64,000 bases of DNA. Origin: Halosimplex salinum. GTDB lineage: Archaea > Halobacteriota > Halobacteria > Halobacteriales > Haloarculaceae. This document shows positions 16,170 through 27,466 of the stretch, in pieces. Numbering within the stretch: position 1 is the first letter of the stretch; every line of letters begins with the position of its first letter. The translations under genes were made by a program, and so were the position numbers. Location: the NCBI RefSeq assembly GCF_003730195.1, contig NZ_QWGG01000001.1:620001-684000 (forward strand), given 5' to 3'. The notes beneath the pieces are model-generated. The model was not told where the DNA came from. It made no database searches and saw only the letters and a program-made list of their open reading frames with translations.

Positions 16170-16976
16170 ATGAATCCGAACCGCGTCGATTCGCTCGTCG
16201 ACCTCGTGTACGGGCTGTTGATCGCGATCTCGGTGGGGCTGATCGTGGTCGTCGAGAACGCCGTCGGCCTGGCGTTCGGGTTCGGCGTCCTGATCTCCTT
16301 CATGATCCACGTCGTCTGGAAGATGGCCCGGTTCGACCCCGACTGGATGACCACGGCTGTCAAAGAGACGGTCGAGGAGACCGTCGAAGAGACGGTCGAC
16401 GAGAAGGTCGGCGATACGGTCGAAGAGACGGTCGAGGAGACGGTCGGCGAAACCGTCGAGGAGACCGTCGGTGAAACCGTCGAGGAGACCGTCGGGGAAA
16501 CAGTCGAGGAGACCGTCGGCGAAACCGTCGAAGCGACCGTCGAGGAGACGGTCGAAGCGAAGGTCGGCGAGACGGTCGAGGAGACCGTCGGAGAGACGGT
16601 CGGCGAAACCGTGGAGGAGAAAGTCGGCGAAACTGTCGAGGAGAAAGTCGGAGAAGCCGTCGAGGAGAAAGTCGGAGAAACCGTCGAGGAGAAAGTCGGA
16701 GAAACCGTCGAGGAGAAAGTCGGAGAAACCGTCGAGGAGAAAGTCGGAGAAACCGTCGAGGAGAAGGTCGGCGAGACGGTCGAAGACACCGTCGGCGAAA
16801 CCGTCGAGGAGACGGTGGAAGAGACCGTCGAGGAAACCGTCGAAGACACGGTCGGCGAAACCGTGGAGGAGACGGTGGAAGAGACGGTCGAGGAGAAAGT
16901 CGGAGAGGTCGTCGAGGAACAGCTGGGGGCGGCTGAGGGCGACTCCGAAGACGAGGACACCGACGGGGGGAGCTGA
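16170..16976 (+). CDS. Membrane protein with unbroken four-residue (E/G)-E-(T/K)-V repeats
   Basis: A 268-residue protein. Two hydrophobic segments at about residues 12-30 and 33-52 form a hairpin anchor. From residue 64 to 248 a valine occurs at every fourth position, about 47 times in a row, in tetrads such as EETV, GETV, EEKV and GEKV; the chain ends in an acidic tail (SEDEDTDGGS). A strict 4-4 spacing is not the 3-4 heptad of a normal coiled coil, so the hydrophobic stripe would wind around the helix. Its stop overlaps the start of the PiT permease gene by one base, so the two are translationally coupled. A role in anchoring or regulating the permease is inference. Confidence 0.85.
   Translation: MNPNRVDSLVDLVYGLLIAISVGLIVVVENAVGLAFGFGVLISFMIHVVWKMARFDPDWMTTAVKETVEETVEETVDEKVGDTVEETVEETVGETVEETVGETVEETVGETVEETVGETVEATVEETVEAKVGETVEETVGETVGETVEEKVGETVEEKVGEAVEEKVGETVEEKVGETVEEKVGETVEEKVGETVEEKVGETVEDTVGETVEETVEETVEETVEDTVGETVEETVEETVEEKVGEVVEEQLGAAEGDSEDEDTDGGS
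16359..16925 (+). repeat. Tandem 12/24-base coding repeat array
   Basis: This stretch encodes the tetrad repeats of the preceding entry. The units are 12 or 24 bases. Four 24-base copies starting at 16659, 16683, 16707 and 16731 are identical (GTCGAGGAGAAAGTCGGAGA then AACC), flanked by variants at 16635 and 16755. The identity at silent sites points to recent expansion by slippage or unequal recombination. It is coding DNA, not a CRISPR: there are no spacers. Confidence 0.9.
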
Positions 16977-19792: not shown

Positions 19793-20770
19793 TCAGAAGT
19801 CGCCGAGCGTGGCCTGGTTGGCTTTCAGGGACTGGGCGGGGTAGCCCAGTTCCGACGTGATGGCGGTGGCGAACTCGTCGGCGAAGCCGTGCTGGGTGTA
19901 CACCTGCTCGGGGTCGACGGCGGAGACGAGGGCGAGGAGTTCGTCGTAGTCGCAGTGGTCCGTGAGGACGAACCCCTCGTCGAAGCCCCGACGGTAGACG
20001 AACGAGTCGTCGACGGCCCATCCCGAGAACCCGGCGGTGACAGCACCGGTCGACTCGACCAGCGACTCGACCCAGGGGCTCCGTGGCGACCCCGAGCAGA
20101 CGAGCGCGTCACCGGCGCCGAGTTCTCCCTCTGAACCGTAGCGCTCGCCGGGGAAGGTCACGTCGCGGTGGTCCTCGATCACGTCGCTCACGTCAGCGAC
20201 GGCGTCCGTGACGAACACGCGGTCGCGCGGCGAGTCCGCGAGGAGTCGCTGGAGCTTCTGCGCTCGCCCCAGCGCGTACCCGAACATGAGGACGGGTCGA
20301 TCCATCGTCTCCGCCAGCCACGACCGGATCGCGTCGACCGATTCCTCCGTGGATGGGAACCGATATTCGGGCTTCCCGTAGGTCGACTCGAGTATCAGCA
20401 CGTCCGCGTCGACGGGGTCGAACCCGTCGAGGTGGAAGCGGTCCCGCGTCGAGCAGTCGCCGGTGTAGAGGTACCGCCGGCCGGTGTCGGGGTCCGTGAG
20501 CCGCATCGCCCGCGAGCCGACCACGTGGCCCGCCGGAAACAGTTCGGCCGCCGGGTGGTCGACCGCGGTCGGGGCCGCCCCGCCGCGCCGGGCGCCGACC
20601 AGCGCGGCCGTCAGGTCCGAGGCGACGACCGCCGACCCGCTGGCGTAGTGGTCGCCGTGGGCGTGGCTCACGAGCGTCGCGTCGGCGTCGCCGCTCCCGT
20701 CCGCGACGAACCGCTCGCCGCCGGCGAACGTGATCTCGATCCCACTGCGTAGCCGAACCCGCCGCGTCAC
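19793..20770 (-). CDS. Metallo-beta-lactamase-fold exonuclease / mRNA 3'-end-processing-like protein
   Basis: A 325-residue protein of the metallo-beta-lactamase fold. Metal-binding motif SHAHGDHYASG (HxHxDH) lies near residue 37, followed by FPAGHVVGSRAMRL, YTGDCSTRDRFHLDGF and LESTYGKPEYRFP, and near the C-terminus LTDHCDYDELLALV. This is the group annotated as ligase-associated exonuclease or mRNA 3'-end processing exonuclease in archaea. The GTG at 20770 is chosen because a TATA-like CGTATATTCG lies about 27-30 bases upstream, which fits a leaderless transcript; a second GTG at 20791 lies inside that promoter. Confidence 0.85.
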   Translation of the reverse strand: MTRRVRLRSGIEITFAGGERFVADGSGDADATLVSHAHGDHYASGSAVVASDLTAALVGARRGGAAPTAVDHPAAELFPAGHVVGSRAMRLTDPDTGRRYLYTGDCSTRDRFHLDGFDPVDADVLILESTYGKPEYRFPSTEESVDAIRSWLAETMDRPVLMFGYALGRAQKLQRLLADSPRDRVFVTDAVADVSDVIEDHRDVTFPGERYGSEGELGAGDALVCSGSPRSPWVESLVESTGAVTAGFSGWAVDDSFVYRRGFDEGFVLTDHCDYDELLALVSAVDPEQVYTQHGFADEFATAITSELGYPAQSLKANQATLGDF

Positions 20771-20930
20771 GCCCGCCCGTTGGCCCCTCACTCGAATATA
20801 CGTGTCGTCGGGCGGCCCCACGCCCGGCGCGCTGCCCCACGCCCTGCCCACCGCCCGACCGCCGCCACGCCGCCATCAGTTTCACCGACGGTCGACTCGC
20901 GAATCGCCGGCAAGCGGCCGTCTGCATTCA

Positions 20931-20976
20931 CTTTCACTTCCGCTCCGGGGTAGGCTGGCGTTTTATAGCCCGGAGT
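20931..20976 (+). promoter_or_regulatory. Promoter and operator of the PolB2 operon
   Basis: A 21-base element at 20931-20951 (beginning ACTTTCACTTCCGC) is repeated exactly at 24425-24445 before another operon. TTTTATA at 20962-20968 lies 28 bases before the ATG, a leaderless arrangement. The TATA box is flanked by an inverted repeat CTCCGGG (20944-20950) and CCCGGAG (20970-20976), a likely repressor or activator site. An AGTTTCAC lies further up at 20878. The hexamer ACTTTC fits ANTTTC, the element reported upstream of DNA-damage genes in Sulfolobales. Its role here is inference. Confidence 0.7.
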
Positions 20977-20992
20977 CCGTCGGATACGGGCG

Positions 20993-21703
20993 ATGCCAGA
21001 ACCTGTCGACGTTCCGACCCTCGATCCCGGGCTCACGCTGTTGCGCCCGCCCGGGCCGCGCTCGACGGCGATCCATCGTCTCGCGCTCGCGACACTCGCC
21101 GAATCGACCGGGGTGGCCTACTGGGTGGACGCCCGCAACGCCGCCTCGACGTACACGCTGTACGACATCGTACACTCGCCGCGCAGGCTCAGAAATCTCC
21201 GGGTGGCGCGGGCGTTCACCGCCTATCAGCACCACGCGCTCGGACGCCGCGTCGTCGAGCGGGTGGACGGGCGGACCGGACTGCTCGTCGCGCCGAACGT
21301 CGCGTCGCTGTACCGCGACGAGGACGTGCCCCGGTACGAGCGCGAGCGCCTGCTCGACAGCACCGTCCGGACGTTCGCGGCGCTGGCCGACGCTCGCGAG
21401 ATCCCGACGCTGCTCAGCGTGCCCGCCGGTCGTGACCCGGGCCCGGCCGCCGAGCACGCCGACCGAATCATCCGGTGTGAGCGGACGGAGATGGGGTATC
21501 GCTTCGAGGGACCGGGCGTCGAGACGACCGTCTACTGGGACGAGGGGTACTGGCAGACGACCATCCCCTACTGGGTCGACCTGCTCGGCGTCGCGTCCGA
21601 GTCGCTCGGGCCGGGAGTCGATCCGGTCGGAACCGGTTCGCCGGAGCCCATCGAACAGATCAGTCTCGCCGCGGCGGCCGGCGCGGCGGGGGGCGCGGAC
21701 TGA
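20993..21703 (+). CDS. Inactivated RecA/RadA paralogue of the PolB2 operon
   Basis: A 236-residue protein. The order of elements follows the RadA/RecA core. The Walker A region is degenerate (RPPGPRSTAIHRLA, without GKT). GVAYWVDARNAASTYTLYDI sits where RadA has its IDTE strand. LRVARAFTAYQHHAL closely mimics the RadA VARAYNSDHQ helix, and the Walker B strand lacks its Asp (GLLVAPNVASLY). It is therefore unlikely to hydrolyse ATP. Comparative work has described inactivated RadA-like genes next to archaeal polB2. By analogy with bacterial ImuA, it may recruit the polymerase to damaged sites; that is inference. First gene of a three-gene operon, sharing one base with the next. Confidence 0.8.
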   Translation: MPEPVDVPTLDPGLTLLRPPGPRSTAIHRLALATLAESTGVAYWVDARNAASTYTLYDIVHSPRRLRNLRVARAFTAYQHHALGRRVVERVDGRTGLLVAPNVASLYRDEDVPRYERERLLDSTVRTFAALADAREIPTLLSVPAGRDPGPAAEHADRIIRCERTEMGYRFEGPGVETTVYWDEGYWQTTIPYWVDLLGVASESLGPGVDPVGTGSPEPIEQISLAAAAGAAGGAD

Positions 21704-22017
21704 TGGGCCGGACCAATCCCACGTATCGGGACTTCCTCCGGCGACTGGAAGACGACTGGCGCTCCTTCCGACGGGGACTGCGCCGGCGCTCCCAGAGCGA
21801 CTTCGACCGGCTGTTCGAGCGGGCGCGCGACCACGCCGACGCCGCGGGCTACGCCAACGGCACCGACCCCGAGTTCGCCTTCCTGCTGTCGGTCCTGGTC
21901 GCACAGGAGCGCGAACTCCGGGAACTGCGCGAGCGAGTCGACGCGGTCGAGACGGACCGCGGCGACGGGGGCGACGCCAGCCCCGCTTCGGTCGGTGCCG
22001 GGACCGGGACCGAGTGA
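21703..22017 (+). CDS. Small helical protein of the PolB2 operon
   Basis: A 104-residue protein, very rich in Arg and Asp/Glu, with helical segments (TYRDFLRRLEDDWRSFRRGL, then FAFLLSVLVAQERELRELRE) that may form a coiled coil. It ends in a disordered Gly/Ala/Ser tail. I recognise no domain. The gene overlaps both neighbours by one base (TGATG), so all three proteins are probably made in fixed ratio. A small protein has been reported at this place in other polB2 loci. It may bridge the RadA paralogue and the polymerase. Confidence 0.75.
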   Translation: MGRTNPTYRDFLRRLEDDWRSFRRGLRRRSQSDFDRLFERARDHADAAGYANGTDPEFAFLLSVLVAQERELRELRERVDAVETDRGDGGDASPASVGAGTGTE

Positions 22018-24314
22018 TGTCTCTGCTCACTCCGGAGTTCCGGCCGGACGGGACGGTCCGCGAGTGGCACGCGACGGCCGACGGCGTGGAGACCCGGGTG
22101 AACGACGACTACGCGCCCTCGCTCTCCGTCGCGGCGCCCGACCCCGTCCGGGCGGACCTCGCGGCCGCGCTGGCCGCCGACCCGAAGGTCGTCGAGACGG
22201 CGACCGAGCGCCGCTACCTCTCGCTCGATGCGGACGAACGCGAGCCCGTTCTCCGAGTCGACCTCGCCCGCGTCGACGAGGTACGGACGCTGGCTCACGA
22301 GATCCTGTCCCACCACGCCGCCGACTACGCGCCGGGGACGGTGCGGCTCTACGACGTGGACCTCGCGCCGGGGTTTCGCTACTGCGTCGACACCGGGACC
22401 GCGCCGGTGCCCGAGCGGGAGTTGCGCCGGCTGGAACTGTCGATCCCCGAACGCGCGCTGGCCGAGGACGACCTGACCGCGCTCCGGGTCGACGGCGAGG
22501 CGCTTCGCGCCTCGAAAGCGAGCGGGGACGGGGGACCCGCGAGCCGCCAGGCCGACCGCGCGGTCCTCGACTCCCTCCGCGAGCGCGTCGAGGTGGTCGA
22601 TCCGGACGTGCTAGTCTGTTCGACCGCCGAGCTGATCCCGCGGTGTCACGAGCGAGCGGAGGCGCTCGGGCTCGACGACTTCCGGCTGGGGCGGGCGGAC
22701 GGCTACGAGCGCCTCGCCGGCGCGAGCACCTACGAGAGCTACGGACAGGTGGGTCACTCGCCGGCCCGCTACGCGCTCCCCGGACGAGCCATCGTCGACC
22801 GGTCGAACAGCTTCCTGCTCGGGAAAGCCGGGCTGCCCGGACTGCTCGACCTCGTGGGTCGGTCGTGGCGGCCGCTCCAGGAGACAGCCCGCGGCTCTAT
22901 CGGGACGATCCTCACGTCCATCGAGATCAAGGAGGCACGCGAGCGGGACGTGCTCGCGCCGTGGAACAAGTGGGAGCCGGAGGCGTTCAAGTCGGTCGGG
23001 ACGCTCCACGACGCCGACCGCGGCGGGTTCACGTTCGCGCCGGAGCCGGGAATCTACGAGGACGTCGTGGAGGTCGACTTCGCCTCCCTCTATCCCTCGA
23101 TCATGCGCGAGTACAACGTCAGCCCGGAGACGGTGAACTGCGACTGTCACGATCGGGAGGACGTGCCCGGCCTCGGCTACAGCGTCTGCGAGGACCGGGG
23201 CTTCCTCGCCGACGTGCTGGGCGGCCTCATCGACGACCGCGCCCGATTCAAGGAGGAACTCGCCGAGTTGCGCGAACGAGCGGCGACGGACGCGCTCGAT
23301 GTGGCCAGTGGAGACTATCAGGCCACGCACGCCGAACCGGACGGCGACTCGCCGGTCGCCGAGCGCGTCGCCGCGCTGGAGGGGCGGATTGACGCGCTGA
23401 AGTGGGTGCTCGTCTCCTGTTTCGGCTACCAGGGCTACCGGAACGCGAAGTTCGGGCGCATCGAGTGTCACGAGGCGATCAACGCCTACGCTCGCGAGAT
23501 CCTGCTGGACGCCAAGGAGCGACTGGAGGCCGGCGGCTGGCGGGTCGTTCACGGGATCGTCGACAGCCTGTGGGTGCAACCGCGGGCGGCGGATCCCGAG
23601 CCCATCGACGAGATCGCGGCCGTCGTGTCCGAGGACGCCCGCATCTCGCTGGAGGTCGAGGCGCGCTTCGACTGGGTGGCGTTCGTCCCGATGCGGAACT
23701 CGTCGGCAGGCGCGCTGACGAAGTACTATGGCAAGGTCGCCGGCGCCGATCCGGAAGACGATGACGCGTTCAAGTTCCGCGGGATCGAGACGCGTCAGCG
23801 CTCGACGCCGCCGTTCGTCGCCGCGGTCCAGCGCGACCTGATCCGGACGCTCGACGCCTCGAACGAGAGCGGTGAGCGAAGCGAACCGCGAACGGAGCGA
23901 CCCGCGAGCCACGACCCCGAAGCCGTCTGCGACCGCCTCGCTCGCGCGCTCGGTCGGCTGGAGCGCCGGGCGGTCGACGCCGAGGACCTGGTGATCCGAC
24001 AGCGCGTCTCGAAGTCCGTCGAGGCGTATGCCCAGCGGACCCGGACGGTCGCGGCGCTGGAGCGGACGGCGGCCCACGGACTTGAGCGACCGCCGGGAAC
24101 GAGCGTCGAGTACGTCGTCGTCGACGACGGGCGAGGAGACGCCGACCGCGTCCGGCTCCCGTTCGAGGACGCGAGCGACTACGACGTGGAGTTCTACCGC
24201 GAACGTCTGATCCGCGCGGCCGAGAGCGTCGTCTCGCCGCTGGGGTGGGACCGCGGGCAGATCCGGCGGTACCTCCGCGACGGGCGGGACCTCACGCTCG
24301 CCGCCTTCGAGTGA
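22017..24314 (+). CDS. polB2: Family B DNA polymerase PolB2 with altered motif C
   Basis: A 765-residue family B polymerase, similar in length to other PolB2. Motif A (EVDFASLYPS) is intact with Asp354. Motif B has Lys462 (LKWVLVSCFGYQGYRN). Motif C, normally YGDTDS, reads HGIVDS at 512-517: the first Asp is replaced, but the second, metal-binding Asp (516) is kept. The exonuclease motifs are lost (DPDVLVCSTAELIP in place of the DNFD type), so it should lack proofreading. This pattern fits a translesion polymerase; Saccharolobus Dpo2 has been reported active in such synthesis. The last gene of the operon, overlapping the small protein gene by one base. Confidence 0.9.
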   Translation: MSLLTPEFRPDGTVREWHATADGVETRVNDDYAPSLSVAAPDPVRADLAAALAADPKVVETATERRYLSLDADEREPVLRVDLARVDEVRTLAHEILSHHAADYAPGTVRLYDVDLAPGFRYCVDTGTAPVPERELRRLELSIPERALAEDDLTALRVDGEALRASKASGDGGPASRQADRAVLDSLRERVEVVDPDVLVCSTAELIPRCHERAEALGLDDFRLGRADGYERLAGASTYESYGQVGHSPARYALPGRAIVDRSNSFLLGKAGLPGLLDLVGRSWRPLQETARGSIGTILTSIEIKEARERDVLAPWNKWEPEAFKSVGTLHDADRGGFTFAPEPGIYEDVVEVDFASLYPSIMREYNVSPETVNCDCHDREDVPGLGYSVCEDRGFLADVLGGLIDDRARFKEELAELRERAATDALDVASGDYQATHAEPDGDSPVAERVAALEGRIDALKWVLVSCFGYQGYRNAKFGRIECHEAINAYAREILLDAKERLEAGGWRVVHGIVDSLWVQPRAADPEPIDEIAAVVSEDARISLEVEARFDWVAFVPMRNSSAGALTKYYGKVAGADPEDDDAFKFRGIETRQRSTPPFVAAVQRDLIRTLDASNESGERSEPRTERPASHDPEAVCDRLARALGRLERRAVDAEDLVIRQRVSKSVEAYAQRTRTVAALERTAAHGLERPPGTSVEYVVVDDGRGDADRVRLPFEDASDYDVEFYRERLIRAAESVVSPLGWDRGQIRRYLRDGRDLTLAAFE

Positions 24315-24361: not shown

Positions 24362-24472
24362 ACTTTCACGGCCGGAAAACCACTTTCACCCGCAGGACGG
24401 CGGGCGGATCGCCGGCGGATCTCTACTTTCACTTCCGCTCCGGGGACGCGGCTAACGGCTTTTGTACCGGAG
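24362..24472 (+). promoter_or_regulatory. Promoter and operator of the zinc-ribbon operon, copy of the PolB2 promoter
   Basis: Three ACTTTCAC blocks lie at 24362, 24382 and 24425. The last begins a 21-base element identical to 20931-20951. TTTTGTA at 24460-24466 takes the place of the TATA box, 28 bases before the ATG at 24488. CTCCGG (24439-24443 region) and CCGGAG (24467-24472) form the same inverted repeat around it. The similarity continues into GGAGTC. Two promoters 3.5 kb apart with this degree of matching strongly suggest shared regulation. Confidence 0.7.
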
Positions 24473-24487
24473 TCACTGGTCGGAGGT

Positions 24488-24736
24488 ATGACGGCGAGCG
24501 AATACACGAGGGACGGCCCGGCGAACCAGTACGCGGGCGACGACCCGGGCGGTGAGCGCGGGGAATCGGAGCCAGACGAGTCGAGACCCGACGGCTGGTC
24601 GCGATATCGGTGCCACGGCTGCGGGTTCGAGTTCGGCGGCGAGACCGTCGGCGCGGCGCGGTGCCCGCGCTGTGGCTGTATCGGCGACCACGACCGAACG
24701 GGAGCGCTCGCGGGGGCGACGGATGGTGGCCCCTGA
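24488..24736 (+). CDS. Zinc-ribbon protein co-regulated with PolB2
   Basis: An 82-residue protein. The first 35 residues are acidic and disordered; the second half is a zinc ribbon, YRCHGCGFEFG then ARCPRCGCIGDHDR, with two CxxC pairs about 16 residues apart. The start at 24488 follows GGAGG. It resembles small rubredoxin/UspA-linked ribbons of haloarchaea, but I cannot name a family. Its promoter is nearly a copy of that of the PolB2 operon, so it may act in the same response. It overlaps the next gene by 14 bases. Confidence 0.75.
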   Translation: MTASEYTRDGPANQYAGDDPGGERGESEPDESRPDGWSRYRCHGCGFEFGGETVGAARCPRCGCIGDHDRTGALAGATDGGP

Positions 24737-26086: not shown

Positions 26087-27466
26087 GTGAGCGGCGACCT
26101 CGGGAGCTTCGGGACGGACGACACGGGGCCCGAGCAGGTGATCTGCCACGTCGACATGGACTGTTTCTACGCCGCGTGCGAACGCCTGCGCGAGCCCGCG
26201 CTCCGGGGTCAGCCGCTGGTCGTCGGGATGGGCTACGAGTCCGAGGAGCCCCACGGCGCGGTCGCCACCGCGAGCTACGAGGCCCGCGAGTTCGGCGTCG
26301 AGAGCGCGATGGCCATCTCCGAGGCGCTCGAGCTGCTCCCGCGCAAGGTCGAGGCGGCGACGGACCCGGACCTCGACGTCGACGAGGCTGGGTTCTACCG
26401 CCCGGTCGATCTGGACTACTACAACGAGGTCGGCGCCGAGGTCAAGGCGATCCTCCACGAGTCGGCCGACACCGTCCGCGAAGTGAGCATCGACGAGGCG
26501 TACCTCGACGTGACCGACCGGGTCCGCTGGGAGAGCGACGCGAGTGCCGCGGGCGACGAGGGAGACTCGCTCCCCACCGTCGACGCCTTCGCCCGTGACC
26601 TCAGGGCGCGGATCCGCGAGGAAGTGGGCGTCGTCGCGAGCGTCGGCGTCGCGCCGACGATGAGCGCCGCGAAGATCGCCAGCGATTACGACAAGCCCGA
26701 GGGCCTCGTGGTCGTCGAACCCGGCGAGATACGGGCGTTTCTCGCCCCGCTGGACGTCGCCGAGATCCACAACGTCGGGCCGGTCACCGCCCGCGAGCTC
26801 CGGGAGATGGGCATCGAGACCGCGGGGGACCTGGCGGCCGCCGACCCCGACCGCATCCGCGACCGCTTCGGCGAGCGCGGACTGGAGGTCCGGCGGTTCG
26901 CCCGCGGCGAGGACCCTCGCGAAGTGACGCCCGTCGGCGAGCCCAAGAGCCTCTCCCGCGAGTCGGCGTTCACCGAGGCGACCGAGGCGACGGACGAGAA
27001 GCGGGAGAAGGTCCGGTCGCTCGCCGAAGACGTGGCCGAGCGCGCCCGGCGGGAGGGCGCGCTCTACCGGACCATCGGGATCAAGGTCGTCACGCCGCCG
27101 TTCGACGTGAACACCCGCGCCGAGTCCCTCCCCGGTCCCGTCGAGGACGCCGACCTCCTCGAGTCGACCGCACTAGACCTGCTCGAGGAGTTCGAGGACG
27201 ACCGGGTCCGAAAGCTCGGCGTCCGCGTCTCGAACCTCTCCTTTACCGAGGACGAGCAGGCGAGTCTGACGGGGTTCGAGAGCGCGTCCGGTTCAGACGC
27301 GTCCGCGGGCGATGGCGCGTCCGGTGCCGACAGCGCGTCCGCGGACGGCACTGCGTCTGCGGACGACTCGGAGTCCGCATCGGCACCCGGGAACGGGGAC
27401 GAAGCGGTCGAGGGCGATACCGCTGGCGAGCGCGACGGCCAGCGCTCGCTCCGGGAGTACGAGTGA
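26087..27466 (+). CDS. dinB: Y-family DNA polymerase IV (DinB)
   Basis: A 459-residue translesion polymerase. Catalytic motifs HVDMDCFYAACE (Asp23, Asp25) and VSIDEAYLDV (Asp136, Glu137) are intact. The helix-hairpin-helix thumb (APLDVAEIHNVGPVTARELREMGI) and the little-finger domain follow, to about residue 385. A disordered Ser/Ala/Asp-rich linker leads to QRSLREYE at the very end, which fits a PCNA-interacting peptide (QxxLxxY). The start is a GTG preceded by GGAGGG, so translation uses a Shine-Dalgarno site. It lies 1.8 kb after polB2, but without the ACTTTCAC promoter element. Confidence 0.95.
   Translation: MSGDLGSFGTDDTGPEQVICHVDMDCFYAACERLREPALRGQPLVVGMGYESEEPHGAVATASYEAREFGVESAMAISEALELLPRKVEAATDPDLDVDEAGFYRPVDLDYYNEVGAEVKAILHESADTVREVSIDEAYLDVTDRVRWESDASAAGDEGDSLPTVDAFARDLRARIREEVGVVASVGVAPTMSAAKIASDYDKPEGLVVVEPGEIRAFLAPLDVAEIHNVGPVTARELREMGIETAGDLAAADPDRIRDRFGERGLEVRRFARGEDPREVTPVGEPKSLSRESAFTEATEATDEKREKVRSLAEDVAERARREGALYRTIGIKVVTPPFDVNTRAESLPGPVEDADLLESTALDLLEEFEDDRVRKLGVRVSNLSFTEDEQASLTGFESASGSDASAGDGASGADSASADGTASADDSESASAPGNGDEAVEGDTAGERDGQRSLREYE

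Follow-up and report, generated by a model that had tools for sequence, protein, structure and literature searches.

What would keep a family-B DNA polymerase in one operon with an inactive relative of RadA, and which signal would switch such an operon on? These questions are raised by three consecutive genes of Halosimplex salinum at 20993-24314 of a 64,000-nucleotide (nt) stretch of contig NZ_QWGG01000001.1 (positions 620,001 to 684,000; hereafter the window, in whose coordinates positions are given). It is very likely that they form a haloarchaeal PolB2 mutasome, most probably one induced by DNA damage through a radA-type ultraviolet (UV) element at 20926. The operon itself is an additional member of an already described PolB2 mutasome family, and what is added here is a proposed wiring of its promoter. 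The features concerned are as follows.

20926-20937, plus strand: promoter element ATTCACTTTCAC, which differs by one mismatch from the UV motif of Halobacterium (TTTCACTTTCA) and lies 67 nt upstream of the start of iRadA
20961-20967, plus strand: TATA-like TTTTATA downstream of the UV-type element, read from the sequence and assigned by its position
20993-21703, plus strand: iRadA, inactive RadA/Rad51 paralogue of 236 amino acids (profile against PDB RadA, fold matches of the model, alignment)
21703-22017, plus strand: PPB2 (arCOG07300-like), helical protein of 104 amino acids with N-terminal MGRT arm and Arg3/Arg9 (alignment, model)
22017-24314, plus strand: PolB2, family-B DNA polymerase of 765 amino acids with motif A D354 and motif C IVD516 (Pfam, alignment)

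The original prediction, made from the letters of the window, was that of a mutasome-like operon with one-base overlaps, and the reading frames agree with it: iRadA, PPB2 and PolB2 are adjacent on the same strand in the order of a PolB2 mutasome, and at both junctions the TGA stop of one gene shares one base with the next ATG (TGATG). Matches to iRadA and PPB2 were found in 176 and 177 of 292 haloarchaeal genomes, respectively (E<=0.001), so the operon is not a chance arrangement. PolB2 matched in 271 of the 292, a total that takes in low-scoring matches with E between about 1e-3 and 1e-9, which are probably replicative PolB. The closest named iRadA is that of Halosimplex aquaticum (86%).

As a single sequence, iRadA gave no match against Pfam. 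A profile of 30 haloarchaeal iRadA sequences aligned with RadA, RAD51 and DMC1 chains among solved structures (best E 3e-12), and 59 of the 60 matches listed bore the names RadA, RadB, DMC1 or RAD51 protein; a profile search of this kind had been named beforehand as the test of the RadA assignment, which stands. With the AlphaFold model (model confidence, pLDDT, 87.9), the first Foldseek matches were also RadA, DMC1 and RAD51 (best E 4.8e-11). The Walker B aspartate of RadA (IVDSL) is replaced in the alignment by P101, which is nearly invariant across the family, and where the P-loop would be, after strand 13-18 and before helix 26-36 of the model, the sequence is PPGPRST, without the GK[ST] that is the P-loop signature. 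The protein therefore is, as predicted, an inactivated RadA paralogue; it has the RadA fold without the N-terminal domain and without the ATPase residues, as in other PolB2 mutasomes. Its motif QTT[IL]xxW (window 21554-21574, Q188-W194; Q188, T189, T190 and W194 invariant in the alignment) was considered as a PCNA-interacting protein box (PIP-box) and is not taken as one: the letters fit, but it lies in the folded core (strand 186-189 and helix 191-198 in the model). Matches to PCNA-motif patterns in 81 of 110 iRadA sequences appear to be mainly this core QTTxxxW motif.

The polymerase matched DNA_pol_B of Pfam (4.6e-24). D354 of motif A and I514-V515-D516 of motif C are invariant across 14 aligned relatives, the first Asp of the DxD motif being replaced and the second kept, as in mutasome polymerases. 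Here and below, citations refer to the portions of each paper that were consulted. Loss of the exonuclease motifs is part of the description of the PolB2 family (PMC11791011, PMC4104785), and motif C of Sulfolobus PolB2 is IID at the same position (PMC11791011). Sulfolobus Dpo2 is an active, exonuclease-less extender that is damage-inducible and drives targeted mutagenesis (PMC8764526, PMC7390963); it is robustly active though the first Asp of DxD is gone. Since motif C of the window PolB2 equals this state, polymerase activity is likely by analogy, and the earlier expectation that the enzyme may still polymerise is supported by the invariance of D354 and D516. Described mutasomes have a D(K/R) loop that follows a RadA-oligomerisation-like segment; the window PolB2 has D261-R262, of which the D is nearly invariant and the next residue varies among relatives, so that the loop is not strictly kept in them. 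A fraction of the described members have a PCNA-binding motif in iRadA or at the C-terminus of PolB2. The canonical form Q..L..F was absent from 30 PolB2 C-terminal tails, all 30 of which have L..F/Y.

Judged from its sequence, the middle protein is PPB2. It opens with MGRTNPTYR, and M1, G2, R3, T4, T7, R9, R23, R24, L26, R27, F34, D35 and A45 are invariant in 29 aligned relatives, although these rows were chosen for an MGRT start and part of the invariance comes from that selection. By the rule used, no reading frame with an MGRT start was found in 15 of 140 loci, for some perhaps because the sequence stretch ended early. The model is all-helical (pLDDT 86.9; helices 8-18, 20-24, 28-43, 45-49 and 56-88), so that the gene product is a small helical protein with MGRT and Arg3/Arg9, the conserved N-terminal marks given for PPB2 in modelling of 2025 (PMC11791011). 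No relative was found in Pfam, no significant one in PDB, and no fold neighbour at E<0.001 by Foldseek; the latter search with the window model did not reproduce the likeness to a sigma factor reported from Dali (PMC11791011). The role of this protein, which had been called open, is now open only in part: PPB2 (arCOG07300) has been modelled as a trimer whose MGRT arm is inserted between PolB2 and iRadA (PMC11791011).

An iRadA-PPB2-PolB2 operon with an inactive RadA, often with arORC2 as a neighbour, was described in 2014 (Makarova; PMC4104785), which agrees with the earlier remark that the association of polB2 with an inactivated RadA is known in archaea. The complex was modelled in 2025 as a heteropentamer with a PPB2 trimer (Timinskas; PMC11791011) for other species, in a report whose main text holds none of the haloarchaeal or euryarchaeal terms looked for. 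Linkage of polB2 and orc, together with the dispensability of polB2 in Halobacterium, was noted in 2007 (PMC1906834), and a 2020 review places Haloferax volcanii polB2 near a radA-like gene (PMC7776575). The window operon has in common with the described mutasomes the three families, their order, the MGRT arm, the dead RadA without N-terminal domain and the change of the first Asp of DxD to Ile; unlike them, it is haloarchaeal, has a radA-type UV promoter element and has no Orc1/Cdc6 neighbour.

Among bacterial systems, Pol V (UmuD'2C-RecA) is a closer published parallel than ImuA-ImuB-DnaE2. A RecA-fold partner, a small accessory protein and an error-prone polymerase are common to both systems and the window, whereas the polymerase families and accessory proteins are unrelated. 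ImuB is a relative of Y-family polymerases and DnaE2 is a C-family polymerase. The likeness to ImuA-ImuB-DnaE2 drawn in the original prediction is therefore weak, since PPB2 lacks polymerase similarity and the catalytic subunit belongs to family B; membership in ImuABC is ruled out, as the operon contains no Y- or C-family protein.

With regard to the promoter, ATTCACTTTCAC at 20926 is the sole site within one mismatch of TTTCACTTTCA on either strand of the window; the original prediction does not mention it. In Halobacterium, TTTCACTTTCA lies upstream of TATA in the UV-B-induced genes radA1, top6B, vng17 and vng280 (Boubriak et al., 2008; PMC2556686). Common to these genes and the window operon is a motif of 11 bp that precedes TATA, its distance to the start being about 50 nt in the former and 67 nt in the latter, but polB2 is not among the genes reported with the motif there and the window copy has one mismatch. 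In Halosimplex aquaticum (L240), a UV-type element with 2 mismatches is found at the same distance. The motif is common in haloarchaeal radA promoters: at <=2 mismatches it was present in 29 of 30 radA promoters (0 mismatches in 25 genomes, 1 in three, 2 in one and 3 in one), 53-59 nt before the estimated start in the 30 genomes. The core TTCACTTTCAC has 11 exact copies in the 5.07 Mb genome of the window, among them copies before radA (52 nt), top6B (60), mcm (62) and the mutasome (66), as well as before genes for an HNH protein (54), an OB-fold RPA-like protein (96) and a Mre11-like phosphoesterase (122); the downstream genes were read by eye and partly confirmed by Pfam. No earlier report of the UV motif at polB2 was recognised in the open-licence literature, which was mostly not surveyed in full text. 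CdrS was considered as the owner of the TTTCAC motif and no link was found; the consulted part of PMC8406309 gives its targets (ftsZ1, proteasome and others) and no motif letters.

It is most likely, by analogy with Sulfolobus Dpo2, that the function of the operon is damage-induced translesion synthesis (TLS). DNA damage would act through the UV element at 20926 to raise transcription, and the levels of recombinase and bypass polymerase would increase together; PolB2, an exonuclease-less family-B polymerase, may then extend primer ends past lesions, while iRadA is predicted to dock on PolB2 rather than form filaments and the MGRT arm of PPB2 to be placed between the two near DNA. Activity, extender role and complex architecture are taken here from Sulfolobus work and from published models of other species. 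Dpo2 of Sulfolobus islandicus and the window PolB2 share polymerase family and motif state, and damage induction is expected. Inducibility in this organism, and one regulator for the radA and mutasome promoters, are what we infer. What gives the promoter result its weight is that the literature cited here yielded no named DNA-damage regulator of haloarchaea.

How widely is this arrangement distributed? We compared 110 iRadA loci, which are part of the iRadA places found in the search of 292 genomes. Of these, 32 have TTTCACTTTCA (<=2 mismatches) 57-72 nt upstream of the start of iRadA, a count that leaves out L122 (3 mismatches) and L163 (2 mismatches, 169 nt away). When L122 was placed by hand in the UV type, 77 loci of other class were left, and TCGGAA was found in the upstream regions of 50 of them, compared with 0 reversed and 2 coding-body regions. 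In many of these loci, tandem CGGAA repeats (e.g. TCGGAAATTCCGGAAACG) lie about 50-63 nt upstream and directly precede a TATA-like stretch. Counted loosely, 60 of the 110 loci have at least two CGGAA-type k-mers within 200 nt, and a strict pattern gave 21 places in 9 of 15 genomes; coding-body control windows had 0 of 80 for both the UV element and the CGGAA repeats. When the UV-element label is mapped onto the iRadA tree, it changes 5 times, with well-supported branches forcing 2 of the changes, and an independent-pairs test on this tree cannot reach 0.05. In L249 and L250, a repeated TTCCGTGAA is present upstream of iRadA, whose opposite strand reads as spaced CGGAA copies; it is possible that the site and the linked Orc protein (only 34% like the common one) have co-diverged.

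A second mutasome was observed in the genome of the window itself, on a contig of 99.5 kb (L043; contig C5, 78000-90000). CGGAA repeats lie 57 nt upstream of its iRadA frame, PPB2 and PolB2 are about 1.5 kb apart, and alongside is an Orc/Cdc6 gene preceded by inverted repeats. This Orc/Cdc6 is unlike that of L237, which as a query gave no match there. The two promoter types thus coexist in one genome, on separate contigs.

The two promoter types differ in their neighbours. Orc1/Cdc6 homologues were scored by tblastn (E<=1e-10) in flanks of up to 3 kb, separately from promoter type, at 80 named loci. Such a neighbour was present at 43 of the 80 overall, but at 0 of 15 UV-type loci, 29 of 39 CGGAA-type loci and 14 of 26 with neither element (Fisher test for UV versus CGGAA type, 3.8e-7 with relatedness ignored). 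In a second set (39 loci and the window), it was found at 1 of 21 UV-type loci and 13 of 19 others (3.0e-5 for UV type versus all others, relatedness ignored as well); the sole UV-type locus with orc is L323, which matches a plasmid-type Orc at 37%. Locus L350, scored UV-type in this set (2 mismatches somewhere in 270 nt), is better regarded as CGGAA-type (repeats at 65 nt). The two sets share species, e.g. contigs of Haloferax profundi, Halopiger goleimassiliensis and Natrialba swarupiae, and are not independent tests; relatedness inflates the counts, and their phylogenetic independence is limited. No Orc homologue was found near the window operon, where 3 kb of upstream flank and about 590 bp after PolB2 were covered.

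The CGGAA repeats also occur before the orc genes. At five of the 21 strict places (L222, L226, L229, L231 and L237, of which L222 and L229 are two copies within one genome), an Orc/Cdc6-like gene begins about 58 nt downstream; its product has AAA and Cdc6-lid domains and, as best solved match, archaeal Cdc6-1. Of 33 mutasome-linked orc promoters, CGGAA repeats are present within 230 nt in 19, of which 17 have them at 57-67 nt; the UV element (<=2 mismatches) was found in 5. In L241, L249, L250 and L271, the UV element is upstream of the linked orc gene rather than the mutasome, which suggests a cascade; in L241 the mutasome promoter has the CGGAA repeats and the orc promoter the UV element. 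Both promoters of L295 have a common diverged version, TTTCTGGCACTTCTGGC. Over the 33 pairs, orc and mutasome promoters of the same locus were more similar than permuted ones (13.5 versus 12.3 of 18; 0 of 5000 permutations as high), a test confounded by relatedness; by locus, L295 and L282 beat all others and L241, L280, L311 and L316 beat none.

The Orc1-2 protein of Sulfolobus does not act as an initiator; it recognises ANTTTC in damage promoters, its own among them, and Dpo2 is not induced in strains with too little or mutant Orc1-2 (PMC9738581). Because of this analogy, the Orc beside CGGAA-type mutasomes is a likely regulator, and Orc-less operons such as that of the window likely rely on whatever drives radA; unlike the Sulfolobus system, the window operon has no orc nearby, although ACTTTC happens to occur in its element. 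We infer two alternative damage-response wirings for haloarchaeal mutasomes, UV element versus CGGAA repeats with Orc. That the two are interchangeable at the same promoter position, the radA/UV set being Orc-less and the Orc1/Cdc6 of the others binding CGGAA in both promoters, seems to us to have about even chances; mutasome-linked Orc1/Cdc6 on CGGAA repeats would then be the euryarchaeal counterpart of Sulfolobus Orc1-2.

Several observations weigh against a damage-induced mutasome under the UV element. Of the exact TTCACTTTCAC copies, one is 370 nt away from the RecQ-like start that follows it, another has a PAP2-like phosphatase downstream (read by eye) and two are followed by unclear genes; the window copy of the full motif has one mismatch; at <=1 mismatch the 11-mer occurs 48 times in the genome, compared with 35 for the reversed control; most haloarchaeal mutasomes lack the UV-type element; and deletion of polB2 is viable in Halobacterium (PMC1906834). 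The ratio of 48 to 35 and the site before the phosphatase would also be expected if the TTTCACTTTCA-like element were a general strong-promoter feature of haloarchaea that is uninformative on damage. It is because of this ratio that we regard only exact, well-placed copies as signal and let position and gene identity carry the case. With exact sites limited to 11 in 5.07 Mb, several of which precede replication or repair genes, with the motif in 29 of 30 radA promoters and with UV-B induction of the Halobacterium genes that bear it (PMC2556686), a general promoter feature appears unlikely.

For the other promoter type, the CGGAA repeats might be replication-origin boxes of the adjacent Orc1/Cdc6 gene and not promoter elements: one published haloarchaeal element like an origin recognition box (ORB) has CGGAAAC within it, and a link between Orc proteins and their ORBs has been described (PMC3528665). 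Yet 17 of 33 orc starts have the repeats 57-67 nt upstream and iRadA starts have them at a comparable distance, they are direct repeats just upstream of a TATA-like stretch, and no G-string like that of haloarchaeal ORBs was apparent by eye in the stretches viewed, so that we consider origin boxes doubtful, if less so than a general promoter feature. Least probable is a polymerase that has truly lost its activity, in an operon that provides a structural or regulatory complex at replication origins or stalled forks. This was proposed in 2014 from the arORC2 neighbour (PMC4104785), and the lost first Asp of DxD and the Orc1/Cdc6 neighbour at 43 of 80 named loci would fit it; the invariance of D354 and D516 in 14 rows, the robust activity of Sulfolobus Dpo2, in which the first Asp is likewise gone, and the lack of an Orc homologue in the flanks of the window operon make it very improbable. 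If the UV and CGGAA wirings are true, they would provide a short list of target promoters, with the adjacent Orc1/Cdc6 as candidate regulator of CGGAA-type operons, extend the Orc protein turned damage regulator from Sulfolobus to euryarchaea, and account for the known but unexplained linkage of polB2 and orc.

The region after the operon contains a further set of repeats.

24362-24445, plus strand: three copies of ACTTTCAC (at 24362, 24382 and 24425), in front of the small gene that follows

The last copy (24425) continues ACTTTCACTTCCGCTCCGGGG, like the mutasome promoter, and two copies of ACTTTCAC are found at the corresponding place in Halosimplex aquaticum L240. Downstream of the three copies is a cysteine-rich open reading frame (24488-24736, 82 amino acids, no Pfam match), which may belong to the same response as the mutasome.

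A dinB gene for a Y-family polymerase lies at 26087-27466, 1.8 kb downstream, and its order and similar spacing are kept in Halosimplex aquaticum. A general TLS cluster of mutasome and dinB was considered and rejected, as no other close pair was seen in 35 genomes (places compared by eye). On the other side of the operon, 19793-20851 (minus strand) is a divergent gene for a metallo-beta-lactamase-like protein with weak Pfam matches; the protein ends in NQATLGDF, which we take to resemble a PCNA-binding tail. Finally, a tandem-repeat-like stretch with units such as TVSPTFSS (minus-strand reading) was observed at about 16470-16950.

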